This document shows, piece by piece, positions 42,736 through 47,989 of a stretch of 64,000 nt of DNA (the stretch's first letter is position 1; each line of letters starts with the position of its first letter). A program made the translations under genes and the position numbers. This DNA comes from Actinopolyspora mortivallis DSM 44261 (GTDB lineage: Bacteria > Actinomycetota > Actinomycetes > Mycobacteriales > Pseudonocardiaceae). The stretch spans positions 263,088 to 327,087 of the forward strand of contig NZ_KB913024.1 of assembly GCF_000384035.1 (NCBI RefSeq). Reading direction: 5' to 3'. The notes beneath the pieces are model-generated. The model ran no database searches. It was given only the letters and a program-made list of their open reading frames with translations, and was not told where the DNA came from.

Positions 42736-43799
42736 GTGCGAAGGGTGGTCCCGGCCGGATCGTGCTCGGTATCGAAACCTCGTGTGACGAGACCGGGGCG
42801 GGACTGGTGCGACTCGAACCGGACGGTTCGGTGCGACTGCTGGCCGACGCGGTCGCCTCCAGCGTCGACGAACACGCGCGGTTCGGGGGAGTGGTTCCGG
42901 AGATCGCCAGCCGGGCGCATCTGGAGGCCATGGAGCCGACGGTGCGCCGGGCCCTGGACGAGGCCGGGATCGGACTGGCCGACGTGGACGCCGTCGCGGT
43001 CACGGCGGGCCCCGGTCTCGCCGGTGCGCTCATGGTCGGCGTGTCGGCGGCGAAGGCCTACGCCGCCGCGCTGGGCGTCCCGCTGTACGGGGTGAACCAT
43101 CTGCTCGGTCACGTGGCCGTGGACACGCTCGAGAACGGGCCGTTGCCGCGGCACTGCCTGGCCCTGCTCGTCTCCGGCGGACACACCCAGCTGCTGTCGG
43201 TCTCCGGTGTCGCGGAGGAGGTCACCGAGATCGGCTCGACGATCGACGACGCGGCCGGTGAAGCCTACGACAAGGTGGCACGCATCCTGGAACTGCCCTA
43301 TCCGGGTGGCCCGCCGATCGACAGGGCCGCCCGCGAGGGGGACCCGGAGGCGATCGCTTTCCCCCGTGGGTTGACCGGTCCGCGGGACCCGAAGTTCGAC
43401 TTCTCCTTCTCCGGGCTGAAGACCGCCGTGGCGCGGTGGGTGGAGCAGGCCAGGGACGCGGGACGCCAGCTGCCCATCGCCGACATCGCCGCCTCGTTCC
43501 AGGAGGCGGTGGCCGACGTGCTCACCGACAAGGCGGTGCGCGCGGCCACCGAGCTCGGTCTGGACACGCTGGTGCTGTCCGGCGGTGTGGCCGCGAACTC
43601 CCGCCTGTCCGCGCTGGCCAGGCAGCGGTGCGCGGAGGCCGGAATCACCCTGCGGGTGCCGCGCCCCCGGCTGTGCACCGACAACGGCGCGATGATCGCC
43701 GCCGTGGGGGCGCACGTGATGGCGACCGGGGTCGAGCCCTCCTCGCTGGGTATCTCGGCGGACCCCGGTATGCCGGTGAGCACCGTCGTGGCGTACTGA
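42732..43799 (+). CDS. tsaD: tRNA N6-threonylcarbamoyladenosine transferase TsaD
   Basis: Catalyses transfer of threonylcarbamoyl to tRNA A37. [42 protein letters not shown], the iron/zinc motif [44 protein letters not shown], and the metal Asp in [10 protein letters not shown] are all present. 355 residues. Last gene of the tsaB-rimI-tsaD operon, ended by a bidirectional terminator. Confidence 0.96.
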
Positions 43800-43808
43800 C
43801 CCGCTGTG

Positions 43809-43836
43809 GTGGCCCGGTTCCCCCGAACCGGGCCAC
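43809..43836. terminator. Bidirectional terminator between tsaD and phoD
   Basis: GTGGCCCGGTTC (43809-43820) pairs with its complement (43825-43836) over a CCCC loop, between convergent genes. Confidence 0.75.
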
Positions 43837-43842
43837 ACGGCT

Positions 43843-45423
43843 TCAGCTCCTGCGGTGCAGCCTGGGTTCCCCGTCCTCGACGACGAAACTGGCCGCAGTC
43901 CTGGCCGGTGCTCCGCGTTCGGTCACGTGGTCCAGGACGCGGTGGTCCACCCGCAGCTGGTCCGCGCTGAACCGGGTGCGCACGTAGCCGCGCCGGTCCT
44001 TGTAGAACTTCACGTGCGGGTTGTCCTCGAGCACACCCCGCTGGGTGTCCTCGCTGCCGTCGCCGCCGCTGGTGATCGAGGTGGTGACGAATTCGGTGCC
44101 CGCCGGCGGGGAGTCCGGGTGCTCGTGGGAGTCACGGATCTCGGCCGCCCAGTGCCGGTGCACGTCACCGGTGAACACCACGCCGTTGCGGACGTTGCTG
44201 TCGGCCATGGCGTGGGCGATGCGGTCGCGGTTGGCGACGTAGCCGTCCCAGGCGTCCATGTTGTACCCCTCGCCGGGGCCGGCGGTGAGGTCCAGTTTGG
44301 AGAAGAACACCTGCTGGCCGAGCACGTCCCAGCGGGCCTGGGTGGTGCGGAAGCCGTCGAGGATCCACTCCTCCTGCCGCCGCCCGGTGATGCTGCGCTC
44401 GGGATCGAAGCGCTCCGGGCACTCCACGTTGAACCCGTCTCCGCAGGCCTGGTCGTCGCGGTACTGGCGGGTGTCGAGCATGTGGAAGTTGGCCAGCCCG
44501 CCCCAGCGGATCCGGCGGTAGAGCCGCATGTCGATGCCGCGTGGTCTGCTGGAGGAGCGCAGCGGCATGTTCTCGTAGTAGGCCCGGAAGGCGGCCGCCC
44601 GGCGCGCGAGGAATTCCTCCTGTGGTTCCTCCGGGACCTCGTCGGCCCAGTTGTTCTCCAGCTCGTGGTCGTCCCAGACCACCAGCCAGGGCGCGGTCGC
44701 GTGCGCCAGTTGCAGGTCGGGATCGGTTTTGTACTGGGCGTGGCGCTGGCGGTACTGGGCCAGCGTCCTCGTCTCCGGGCCGAGCACGGTGCGCACGTCA
44801 CCGTCCGCGGCGGGATACTCGTACTGGTAGTCGCCGAGGTGCAGGATCAGCCCCGGCTCGTCCTCGGCCATCCTGCGGTAGGCGGTGAAGTAGCCCTGTC
44901 CGTAGTGGGCACAGGAGGCGAAGCACAGGGTCAGGTCCCCCAGGTGTCCCGGCGGCGGTGCGGTGCGGGTGCGTCCGGTGGGGGAGACCTCGTTGCCCAC
45001 GCGGAAGCGGTAGAAGTACTCGGCTCCGGGCCGCAGTCCGTCCACTTCGACGTGCACGCTGTGCGCGTACTCCGGCCTGGCCCAGGCCAGGCCGCGCCGA
45101 ACCGAACGACGGAACCGCTCGTCCTCGGAGATCTCCCAGAGCACCGGGTAGCTCCGGCTCGGCATGCCTCCGCCGCCGTCCGGGGCGGTCGGGTCGGGAG
45201 CCAGTCTGGTCCACAGCACGATTCCGGTGGGCAGCGGCTCTCCCGAGGCCACGCCCAGGCTGAACGGATGCTTCAGCCTGCCGACTCCGGCTCCCGGAGT
45301 TCCCGTGGCGTGGGCGATGCCGTTCGCGGTGCCCGCCAGAGCGGCGCCTCCGAGGGCGGCCGCCCCTCCGAGCAGCACCGAACGGCGGCCGAGAGAACCG
45401 TGCGAACCGGTGGATTCGGACAT
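43843..45423 (-). CDS. phoD: PhoD-type alkaline phosphatase/phosphodiesterase, copy 1 (526 aa)
   Basis: A Tat-secreted phosphatase: GRRSVLLGGAAALGGAALAG gives the twin-arginine signal. The N-terminal PhoD_N domain (HPFSLGVASGEPLPTGIVLWTRL) and catalytic PhoD domain follow, with LCFASCAHYGQGYFTAY, LILHLGDYQYE, VVWDDHELENNW (metal ligands), FHMLDTRQYRDDQ and VVFTGDVHRHWAAEI. The ATG follows AGGAGGAACGGG. 45% or more resemblance to copy 2 by eye; identical length. A possible PHO box lies 77-97 bp upstream. Confidence 0.93.
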   Translation of the reverse strand: MSESTGSHGSLGRRSVLLGGAAALGGAALAGTANGIAHATGTPGAGVGRLKHPFSLGVASGEPLPTGIVLWTRLAPDPTAPDGGGGMPSRSYPVLWEISEDERFRRSVRRGLAWARPEYAHSVHVEVDGLRPGAEYFYRFRVGNEVSPTGRTRTAPPPGHLGDLTLCFASCAHYGQGYFTAYRRMAEDEPGLILHLGDYQYEYPAADGDVRTVLGPETRTLAQYRQRHAQYKTDPDLQLAHATAPWLVVWDDHELENNWADEVPEEPQEEFLARRAAAFRAYYENMPLRSSSRPRGIDMRLYRRIRWGGLANFHMLDTRQYRDDQACGDGFNVECPERFDPERSITGRRQEEWILDGFRTTQARWDVLGQQVFFSKLDLTAGPGEGYNMDAWDGYVANRDRIAHAMADSNVRNGVVFTGDVHRHWAAEIRDSHEHPDSPPAGTEFVTTSITSGGDGSEDTQRGVLEDNPHVKFYKDRRGYVRTRFSADQLRVDHRVLDHVTERGAPARTAASFVVEDGEPRLHRRS

Positions 45424-45810
45424 CCCGTTCCTCCTGACAGATGTTCGGGAACCAACCGCCGAACAGCCTCTCGCCCGGTGGGTACGCCCGCCACCGGTGT
45501 TCGGTGGTCGTCGGGTGAACTCCCGACAACGGGCGGGCCACAGTGGAGTTCCCCGTCTCTCCCGCCGGGGCGGACGGCTCCCGGCGGGTGGGTTCGTGGA
45601 TCGCTCCGGTTCCGGGGCTCCGGGCGTTTCAGGCCCGTCGGTTGACGGGACGTCGCGGAGGACCGAGCGGCCCGGGAGGACGGGAGGGCCGGGGGTGACG
45701 TTTCCACGGTTGGTTCGTGGGTCTCGTCGGGGTGGTCATGGGGGGCAACCTAGAGCACACGGTTGATCACGGTGCACGCACCCCCGTGGCCGGAGGTGCG
45801 TGTCCACCGC
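45424..45810. other. 387-bp intergenic between tandem phoD genes
   Basis: No gene is supported. It contains the copy 1 RBS, a TGTTCGG/CCGAACA dyad (45442-45465), the possible PHO box (45499-45520), and GC-rich sequence without a clear terminator for copy 2. Confidence 0.5.
45499..45520 (-). promoter_or_regulatory. Possible PHO box upstream of phoD copy 1
   Basis: Two adjacent 11-nt units read on the minus strand, GTTCACCCGAC and GACCACCGAAC, resemble the direct-repeat units bound by Streptomyces PhoP (GTTCACC-type). The first matches well, the second 5 of 7 core bases. Confidence 0.45.
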
Positions 45811-47391
45811 TCAGCCGTCGGTGCCGCGGAACCCCGGGACTCCGTCCTCGATCGTGAGGGAGGCCTTGGTGCTCACCGGGGCGCCTTCCCTGGAGACGTA
45901 GGGCAGCACGCGGAAGTCCGCGGTCACCCGCTCGGCCTCGACCCGGGTGCGCAGATAGCCGCGCATTCCGCTGTGGAAACGGATGTGCGGGTTGTCCGGG
46001 TCCCCGGTGAACTCGTCGGGGTCCGCGTCGCCTCCGGAGGTGACCGAGGTGGTGACCAACTCGGTGCCCACCGGCGGGGAGTCCGGGTCGGAGTAGTCGG
46101 TCTTCAGCTCGGCCGCGTAGTGCTCGTGGATGTCCCCGGTGAGCACCACCGGGTTACGCACTCCCGCCGAGATCCACCCCTCGGTGATCCGCCGCCGTGA
46201 GGCCGTGTAGCCGTCCCAGGTGTCCATACTGGTCATGGTCAGCGGTCCGCCGAGGGTGTCGTGGTGGGCGAACATGACCTGCTGGCCGAGGAAGTCCCAG
46301 CGGGCGGTGGAGGCACGCAGGTTGTTCAGCAGCCACTCCTCCTGTTCCCGCCCGGTTATGGACCTGTCCGGATCGTCCTCCAGCCCGCAGGGGCCGACCA
46401 GGCCGCCGCAGGTCTGGTCGTCGCGGTACTGGCGGGTGTCGAGCATGTGGAAGTTGGCCAGCCCGCCCCAGCGGATCCGGCGGTAGAGCCGCATGTCACC
46501 ACCGCGTGGTCTGCTGGAGGAGCGCAGCGGCATGTTCTCGTAGTAGGCCCGGAACGAGGCGGCCCGCCGTGCTCCGAAGTCCGGCTGGGGCAGTTCGGGG
46601 TCGTCGCCGGCCCAGTTGTTGTCCAGCTCGTGGTCGTCCCAGACCACCACCCACGGTGCCGTGCGGTGCGCCAGTTGCAGGTCGGGGTCTGTTCGGTACT
46701 GGGCGTACCGTTGGCGGTACTCGGCCAGGGTGCGGGCCTGCCCACCCGCGACCGGGCGTGCGATTCCCGACAGGACGGGGTACTGCAGATGGCCGAGTTC
46801 GTAGATGTAGTCGCCGAGGTGCAGCACCAGGTCGGGTTCCTCCTCGGCGATCCGGCGGTAGGCGGTGAAGAAACCGTGTTCCCACGCCGCGCAGGAGGCC
46901 GTGCACAGGGTGAGGGGGCTGTGGAGCGTGCCGGGGGACGGCGCGGTGCGGGTCCGCGCGGTCTCGGTGGTGTGACGTCCGACGCGGAAGCGGTAGTAGT
47001 ACTCCCTGCCCGGTTCCAGTCCGGCGGTCTCGACGTGGACGGAGTGCGCGCCCTCCGGGCGGGCCGGGGTGGTTCCGGTGCGTACGACTCTGCGGAACCG
47101 TTCGTCCTCGGCCACCTGCCATTCCACGTCGATCACGCGGTCCGGCATCGCTCCGCGCCCGTCCTCGGCGAGGGGGTCGTGGGCCAGTCGGGTCCACAGG
47201 ACGAACCCGTCGGGGGTGGGGTCGCCGGAGGCGACTCCGAGGGTGAAGGGGTTGCCCCGGTCGCGGGTTCCGGTGTGCCACGTGGCGGCGCTGCCGGTTC
47301 CGGCTCCGAGCGCCGCGGCGGCTCCCACGCCCGTGGCCAGGAGCGTTCTGCGGTTCAGGGGACGTGCGTGTTCTCCGCTGGGACGGCTCAT
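45811..47391 (-). CDS. phoD: PhoD-type alkaline phosphatase/phosphodiesterase, copy 2 (526 aa)
   Basis: Same architecture as copy 1: Tat motif NRRTLLATGVGAAAALGAG, PhoD_N domain (PFTLGVASGDPTPDGFVLWTRL), then LCTASCAAWEHGFFTAY, LVLHLGDYIYE, VVWDDHELDNNW and VVLTGDIHEHYAAEL. ATG 47391 is chosen because the Tat signal then sits at the usual place; the frame runs further upstream. A 141-bp stretch is 97% identical to copy 1. In-phase PHO-box-like repeats lie 45-88 bp upstream. Expected to release phosphate from organic esters outside the cell. Confidence 0.93.
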   Translation of the reverse strand: MSRPSGEHARPLNRRTLLATGVGAAAALGAGTGSAATWHTGTRDRGNPFTLGVASGDPTPDGFVLWTRLAHDPLAEDGRGAMPDRVIDVEWQVAEDERFRRVVRTGTTPARPEGAHSVHVETAGLEPGREYYYRFRVGRHTTETARTRTAPSPGTLHSPLTLCTASCAAWEHGFFTAYRRIAEEEPDLVLHLGDYIYELGHLQYPVLSGIARPVAGGQARTLAEYRQRYAQYRTDPDLQLAHRTAPWVVVWDDHELDNNWAGDDPELPQPDFGARRAASFRAYYENMPLRSSSRPRGGDMRLYRRIRWGGLANFHMLDTRQYRDDQTCGGLVGPCGLEDDPDRSITGREQEEWLLNNLRASTARWDFLGQQVMFAHHDTLGGPLTMTSMDTWDGYTASRRRITEGWISAGVRNPVVLTGDIHEHYAAELKTDYSDPDSPPVGTELVTTSVTSGGDADPDEFTGDPDNPHIRFHSGMRGYLRTRVEAERVTADFRVLPYVSREGAPVSTKASLTIEDGVPGFRGTDG

Positions 47392-47435
47392 GGGCACCTC
47401 TCGCCGTGTGCGTTCCACGCGTGGATCCTCGCGCA

Positions 47436-47479
47436 CAGAAGTGAGCATTTTTCGTGTATGGCGTGATCACAGCGTGAAC
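47436..47479 (-). promoter_or_regulatory. Possible PHO box upstream of phoD copy 2
   Basis: On the minus strand, 11-nt units GTTCACGCTGT and GATCACGCCAT are adjacent; after one degenerate unit, GCTCACTTCTG continues in the same 11-nt phase. This spacing is that of PhoP-binding direct repeats in Streptomyces. Confidence 0.5.
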
Positions 47480-47559
47480 AGTGTTCGGGGAGCTGTCGAC
47501 CGGCATCCGGGTGAGCCGAACACGGAGGGGCGAATTTCTCCACGGTGGAGGGGGCCGTG

Positions 47560-47593
47560 TTGAACGTTGGCACTCGCACCGGTAGAGTGCTAG
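47560..47593 (+). promoter_or_regulatory. groES promoter with CIRCE (HrcA) operator
   Basis: TTGGCACTC-N9-GAGTGCTAG (47567-47593) is a near-perfect CIRCE element bound by HrcA. It overlaps a promoter: -35 TTGAAC (47560-47565), 17-bp spacer, -10 TAGAGT (47583-47588). The remainder of the 307-bp gap 47392-47698 is the phoD copy 2 promoter region and the groES leader. Confidence 0.9.
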
Positions 47594-47698
47594 ACGAACG
47601 GCGCCGGAGCGCCCCGGCACCCGCGACGGCGGGGAGCCACGGAGCCGTCAGACATCCAGCCAACGCTTCGAAGGCCCCAGAAGGTGGAGGTCAAGACC

Positions 47699-47989
47699 GT
47701 GGCGAGCATCAAGCCGCTTGAGGACAAGATTGTTGTCCAGGCAAGTGAGGCCGAGACGACGACGGCGTCCGGCATCGTGATCCCGGACACGGCCAAGGAG
47801 AAGCCGCAGGAGGGCAAGGTCCTCGCTGTCGGCCCGGGCCGTGTGGACGACAAGGGCAACCGCATCCCGCTCGACGTCAAGGAAGGCGACGTCGTCATCT
47901 ACTCCAAGTACGGCGGGACCGAGGTCAAGTACAACGGCGAGGAGTACCTGGTCCTCTCCGCCCGCGACGTGCTGGCCGTCGTCAACTGA
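47699..47989 (+). CDS. groES: Co-chaperonin GroES
   Basis: 10-kDa cap of the GroEL chaperonin: [26 protein letters not shown], the GPGR segment and [31 protein letters not shown] 47699 was chosen because GGAGGT lies 8 bases upstream and the family N-terminus follows; a GTG at 47684 would swallow the RBS. 96 residues. Controlled by CIRCE. Confidence 0.97.

Follow-up and report, generated by a model that had tools for sequence, protein, structure and literature searches.

Gene conversion between paralogues has been described for the duplicate tuf genes of Salmonella (in passages of PMC5485169) and for the PE/PPE genes of Mycobacterium tuberculosis, where it is interrupted and runs both ways (in passages of PMC12046097), and long-lasting, recurrent concerted evolution has been reported for 26 prokaryotic genes (in passages of PMC6053082). 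In this study, we analysed a tandem pair of phoD genes in a 64,000-nucleotide stretch of the Actinopolyspora mortivallis DSM 44261 genome (contig NZ_KB913024.1; the whole stretch is called the window, and the genome G000). Copy A (window positions 43843-45423) encodes a protein of 526 amino acids and copy B (45811-47448) one of 545 amino acids; both lie on the minus strand, and each has PhoD_N and PhoD domains. We conclude that gene conversion between A and B, seeded at a short conserved segment, has very probably produced a 141-bp block of near identity, which consists of tracts of 84 and 53 bp split by 4 bp.

The 141-bp block and its phylogenetic signal

The block lies at 44449-44589 in copy A and 46414-46554 in copy B, which match without gaps at 137/141 bases, exactly as an earlier note, made from the sequence alone, had stated. 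The four mismatches fall on adjacent bases and touch two codons (44533-44536 in A and 46498-46501 in B; block offsets 84-87), and on either side of them the copies are identical. The right tract (44449-44532 in A and 46414-46497 in B, both minus strand) is 84 bp long and covers residues 298-325 of copy A; the left tract (44537-44589 and 46502-46554, minus strand) is an exact 53-bp match from residue 279 to the second base of codon 296. The patch between them, also on the minus strand, comprises in A the last base of the Gly296 codon and the Ile297 codon. Over the whole genes, A and B encode the same residue at 62% of 515 aligned codons, with a nucleotide identity of 68%, and among the degenerate codons that encode the same residue in both G000 copies, the codon itself is identical at 41/42 positions inside the block and at 160/262 outside it. 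The patchiness that the earlier note had pointed out is thus real; however, this inside/outside contrast overstates the case for conversion.

The A/B duplication predates the genus, and the copies have since diverged to approximately 62% protein identity; the A copy of one genome compared with the B copy of another is therefore the proper control, and it was the one preferred here. The same-genus set comprised 10 genomes including G000, eight of which carry both copies. Against the cross-genome expectation, all 17 codons of the left part (A residues 279-295) agree between the G000 copies, where 9.8 are expected (z 5.4), as do all 28 codons of the right part (residues 298-325), where 23.1 are expected (z 3.1); agreement in the flanks is not clearly above expectation (z 0.9 and 0.6). 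Multiplying the per-codon expectations, on the assumption that codons are independent and with the differing codons 296-297 excluded, gives 5e-8 on the left and 9e-4 on the right. Synonymous identity between the two G000 copies is 16/16 on the left and 25/25 on the right, compared with 9/14 to 11/12 on the left between G000 A and the B copies of other species. The left 53 bp is stronger evidence for conversion than the right segment. Its identity is found in G000 only among the eight two-copy genomes, and the left part shows no excess of agreement in the other seven (z -2.1 to 0.9).

The trees agree with the codon counts. In a tree of the flanks (the alignment without the block, with 1281 columns and 22 sequences, among them the pairs from G021 and G022), the A copies of Actinopolyspora group apart from its B copies, and forcing G000_A and G000_B together costs 393 log-likelihood units. 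Within the block, the A/B split was rejected for the left part, the right part and the whole (approximately unbiased [AU] test, 0.006, 8.5e-11 and 0.012; Shimodaira-Hasegawa test, 0.004, 0.010 and 0.023), where the right-segment AU value used all B copies jointly, several of them converted-looking, and trees that pair G000_A with G000_B were as good as the best tree. The pattern is that of interlocus conversion: within a bounded tract each paralogue is closer to its partner than to its orthologues, the flanks follow the orthologue tree, and silent-site identity rises above background. The earlier note had named equal synonymous identity along the whole genes as a refutation of its gene conversion proposal; the identity in fact varies along them, and the shift in grouping between block and flanks, together with the excess of left codons, supports that proposal.

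Possible recurrence in the genus and background conservation

Over the right segment, A and B do not differ at a single base in 4/8 two-copy genomes (G000, G005, G007 and G008; the exact runs in these four measure 84, 84, 86 or 93 bp), and in G005, G007 and G008 too the exact run begins at codon 298, just past codon 297. Codon agreement in the right part is 28/28 in these three congeners and 22 to 25 in G002, G003, G004 and G009. Over all two-copy genomes, A-B synonymous identity in this segment is 0.933 within genomes and 0.847 between genomes, a difference matched by 28 of 40,320 label permutations. A GENECONV-like run test, in which polymorphic codons were shuffled 10,000 times, found that the longest run of A/B agreement spans residues 300-322 or 300-328 in these four of the eight genomes, in each case from residue 300 (p 1e-4 each); G003 has a run at 308-328 (p 0.003), and the value for G009 was p 0.042. 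These data suggest that the right segment may be a hotspot of repeated conversion in the genus. In the codon table, inspected by eye, the G008 copies are identical where those of its sister G003 differ at residues 301-306, the copies of G005 and G007 are identical in the right segment where those of the nearby G004 are not, and G000 stands separate; from this we infer that the right segment was converted three or more times, if the identity seen in the other species is also due to conversion.

Several observations weigh against this reading. The right segment evolves slowly at synonymous sites in general: copy A has a synonymous identity to non-Actinopolyspora homologues of 0.841 in the right part, 0.739 in the left part and 0.639 and 0.702 in the flanks, and for copy B the values are 0.841 in the right part and 0.633 and 0.641 in the flanks. 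This distant set consisted of 73 of 78 loci, taken from the best 80 of 239 matches, after the Actinopolyspora loci L032-L035 and L057 had been excluded; it held 74 genes, from which L055_1 was removed because it has an in-frame stop, and two of the loci are metagenome-assembled genomes without a genus name. In 600 random pairs drawn from these homologues, synonymous identity was 0.812 on the left and 0.805 on the right, higher in both cases than in the flanks (0.716, 0.735). Because the right segment is slow even against these homologues, background conservation accounts for roughly 60% of the contrast in the right 84 bp. The earlier note had proposed that the same identity between orthologues of distant species would argue against conversion; the right half is indeed conserved, and is weaker evidence for that reason, yet its background of 0.84 lies below the 25/25 found within G000. 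The earlier note had included neither the right-segment identity in other species, nor the interruption of the tract by the patch, nor the share of the identity that background conservation explains.

Within the genus, the right segment gives no clear sign of conversion in G002, G004 and G009 (z -0.1, -0.7 and 0.6). The N-terminal flank also has a slight within-genome excess (983/40,320 permutations; C-terminal flank, 35,926), and the left segment has no excess over all eight genomes (8,040/40,320), its signal being special to G000. When the AU test was applied to single genomes, with only the three native-looking B copies (G002, G003 and G004) for comparison, the hypothesis that B stays with B in the right segment was rejected for G007 alone (0.031), the other values being 0.073 (G000), 0.051 (G005), 0.149 (G008) and 0.271 (G009). 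Recurrence thus has the permutation result and the exact tracts on its side, but single-genome AU values above 0.05 in 4/5 cases; the individual right-segment events are each weakly supported and jointly better supported. Restricting the run test to codons whose residue is invariant in all 18 sequences gave p 0.011 for G000 (0.087 when corrected for eight genomes) and p >= 0.08 for the other genomes, a version that loses power relative to the full polymorphic-codon test.

Furthermore, seven other tandem phoD pairs, a sample among the matches listed (G021, G084, G022, G088, G083, G168 and Planobispora siamensis), have no excess in the right segment: their synonymous identities there (19/22, 17/22, 14/21, 20/24, 15/19, 13/18 and 22/24, respectively) are in line with the other parts of each pair. 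For the two genus pairs G021/G084 and G083/G168, whose copies could also be compared across genomes, the block shows no greater similarity within genomes than across them. In G068, G101 and G103, the stretch covered contained one phoD gene each. As a separate observation, the longest exact A/B runs in G021 and G084 (loci L119 and L131) are 57 and 70 bp and fall at residues 231-255 (copy A numbering), another conserved stretch; identity there is similar within and between genomes, with no sign of conversion.

Mechanism, the spared bases and alternative explanations

We postulate that residues 279-328 of copy A stayed more alike in DNA than the rest of the pair, as the protein there is for the most part nearly invariant and codon choice is narrow. 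The longest exact A-B run falls within these residues in 66/72 cross-genome pairs, with a median longest run of 37 bp, and in 25/27 pairs when the B set is limited to G002, G003 and G004. No longer stretch of homology survives between the copies, which makes this segment the place where recombination could still start. In general, homologous recombination requires RecA and a minimum length of homology. It can be envisaged that the leftover homology lets RecA-dependent homologous recombination pair the copies and copy short tracts from one to the other, and that every round of copying, by renewing the homology, may keep the spot hot. The outcome in G000 would be the 84-bp tract and the adjoining 53-bp tract, with the 4 bp between them retaining copy-specific sequence.

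At the patch, A has GGC ATC (Gly Ile) and B has GGT GGT (Gly Gly). The second codon encodes Ile in 10/10 A copies, whereas the eight B copies encode Gly (2), Thr (4) or Ala (2) and never Ile; G008_B reads GGT GGG. Among the other homologues, position 297 is Ile in 50/73 and Val in 12. Because of this division between the A and B copies and of the G008_B sequence, we read the four spared bases as copy-specific states and not as mutations that arose after conversion. It follows that the tract is interrupted by the patch or that two tracts abut, and the patch could be explained by two tracts that meet there, by selection for Ile in A or by short-patch repair.

Among the forms that conversion may have taken, we give not far short of an even chance to two events that abut at codons 296-297, one that produced the right tract and one that produced the G000-only left tract, perhaps in the opposite direction. 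The right tract is present without the left one in G005, G007 and G008. In its left part, G000 differs from the seven other B copies at 8-11 of 51 positions and from the nine other A copies at 12-15, and so lies closer to each of these B copies than to any of these A copies; however, the tree test of direction was not significant on either side (left, AU 0.872 for grouping with B and 0.128 with A; right, 0.488 and 0.512). For two events to meet exactly at a 4-bp patch would also be fortuitous, unless the border is set by selection or repair. A single event of at least 141 bp, in which the patch was kept by selection for Ile297 in A, is a less likely form, to which we assign a minority share. 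The distribution of Ile described above favours it; however, selection still needs a recombination border or a repair event on which to act, and PhoD from Bacillus subtilis (2yeq) has Pro at the aligned position.

We hold it doubtful that NucS-type short-patch mismatch repair of a recombination heteroduplex left the patch as its natural footprint. NucS was found in 10/10 genus genomes (7/14 of a control set) and MutS domain V in 0/10 (11/14 of the control set), and in one of the two possible A/B heteroduplexes three of the four patch mismatches are T-G or G-T. In Mycobacterium smegmatis, NucS inhibits recombination between nonidentical sequences (passages of PMC5290159), and NucS-associated mismatch repair acts within approximately 5-6 bp, T-G mismatches being the tested NucS-active class (PMC11551744). 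The idea fits both the size of the patch and the class of mismatch; it proves nothing, because it depends on what the recipient sequence was ahead of conversion and because elsewhere in the tract transition mismatches evidently did not escape conversion. If it were true, interrupted paralogue tracts in actinobacteria that lack MutS could serve as records of NucS action.

The principal alternative to conversion, that strong constraint on protein and codon choice, or on a DNA or RNA element, has kept the block alike, is improbable in our view. It is consistent with the near invariance of the right-segment protein and with the raised synonymous identity to the 73 distant homologues; however, the G000 A and B copies each differ from the congener copies at 4-7 of 84 positions on the right and 8-15 of 51 on the left, yet do not differ from each other there, and constraint does not accommodate 17/17 identical left codons or block trees that pair G000_A with G000_B. 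Constraint alone was accordingly rejected as a full explanation, given the within/between-genome contrast, the trees and the codon excess, and was kept as a partial one. An RNA element was rejected, as no Rfam match reached the gathering threshold in positions 43500-47700. Fusion by unequal crossover was also rejected, since the sequences to the left and right of the block stay A or B together; nor was an A/B fusion seen in the two genomes that lack B (G001 and G006), where the A copy matches A along its length at 85%. Finally, an assembly or consensus error that copied the reads of one gene into the other is very improbable: although the left tract is known from this one assembly only, the assembly is a single 4.23-Mb contig that is 99.97% complete, exact right tracts occur in three other genomes, and the 4-bp patch keeps copy-specific bases.

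The phoD locus and its relation to known systems

Both copies meet the curated domain cut-offs of Pfam (PF09423 and PF16655 at 380.9 and 110.2 bits in A and at 365 and 110.7 bits in B) and are predicted PhoD phosphatases; copy A matches B. subtilis PhoD (2yeq_A) with an E value of 1.1e-157. With copy B as the query, the G000 genome has two matches at E <= 0.001, A and B themselves. Orthologues of copy A occur in 10/10 Actinopolyspora genomes (84-86% identity in the 9/9 others) and in public contigs of five Actinopolyspora species (A. biskrensis, A. mzabensis, A. righensis, A. alba and A. xinjiangensis; 83-85%), and orthologues of copy B in 8/10 genomes (77-79% in 7/9 others). The pair lies between genes identified by search as tsaD and groEL, in the order tsaD-A-B-groEL, in G000 and 7/9 congeners (8/10 overall). 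In the sister genomes G001 and G006, A alone sits between tsaD and groEL; because their nearest relative in the A tree, G002, carries B, loss of B is the simplest reading. In the related-genus genomes G068 and G101, B is also absent from the same place, between groEL and A. The gap between A and tsaD is approximately 1.6-2.5 kb at loci L112, L116, L117 and L119, compared with 43 bp in the G000 window, and so there is extra DNA in some genomes. Long open frames antisense to the phoD copies (43855-45645 and 46261-47466, both on the plus strand) are probably a by-product of the 70% G+C content.

Among the matches listed, judged by title and the start of the abstract, there was no report of gene conversion in bacterial phoD, and one bacterial paper (PMC6365617) has passing mentions only; nothing was found for Actinopolyspora with phoD, and, judged by title, none of the papers on gene conversion in duplicated or tandem genes of Streptomyces dealt with such a case. 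The word "phosphatase" is absent from the main text of the study of 26 genes under concerted evolution (PMC6053082). The present case shows how a sub-gene island can be kept alike between anciently duplicated genes, and a segment constrained at the protein level may double as a recombination seed. Such islands could mislead gene trees built from short phoD fragments, and the spared 4-bp patch offers a natural case for how actinobacteria that lack MutS handle mismatches in recombination.

The process itself is known, since conversion between bacterial paralogues is well documented, and the phoD pair is a new instance of it. As far as the cited passages describe them, the tuf genes share with the phoD pair a transfer of blocks between paralogues of one genome, nonreciprocal in tuf, in tracts shaped by mismatches and repair; however, the tuf genes differ at 12 nucleotides, whereas the phoD copies are old and diverged, and only approximately 5-9% of copy A is homogenized. 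The cited part of the 26-gene study likewise reports paralogues that are more alike within a genome than orthologues are, in that study recurrently over a clade, although the unit there is the gene and here it is a sub-gene island only. The PE/PPE genes, in the passages cited, are also actinobacterial paralogues with an interrupted tract; conversion there runs in both directions, and the interruption is 286 bp long, compared with 4 bp in phoD. Repair over approximately 5-6 bp, as described for M. smegmatis NucS in PMC11551744, could leave a spared patch of the phoD size in a converted tract, although it was shown there with oligonucleotides and T-G mismatches and not for conversion between paralogues. 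Set beside these systems, the phoD pair of Actinopolyspora has a small, probably recurrent sub-gene island of homogenization in old paralogues.

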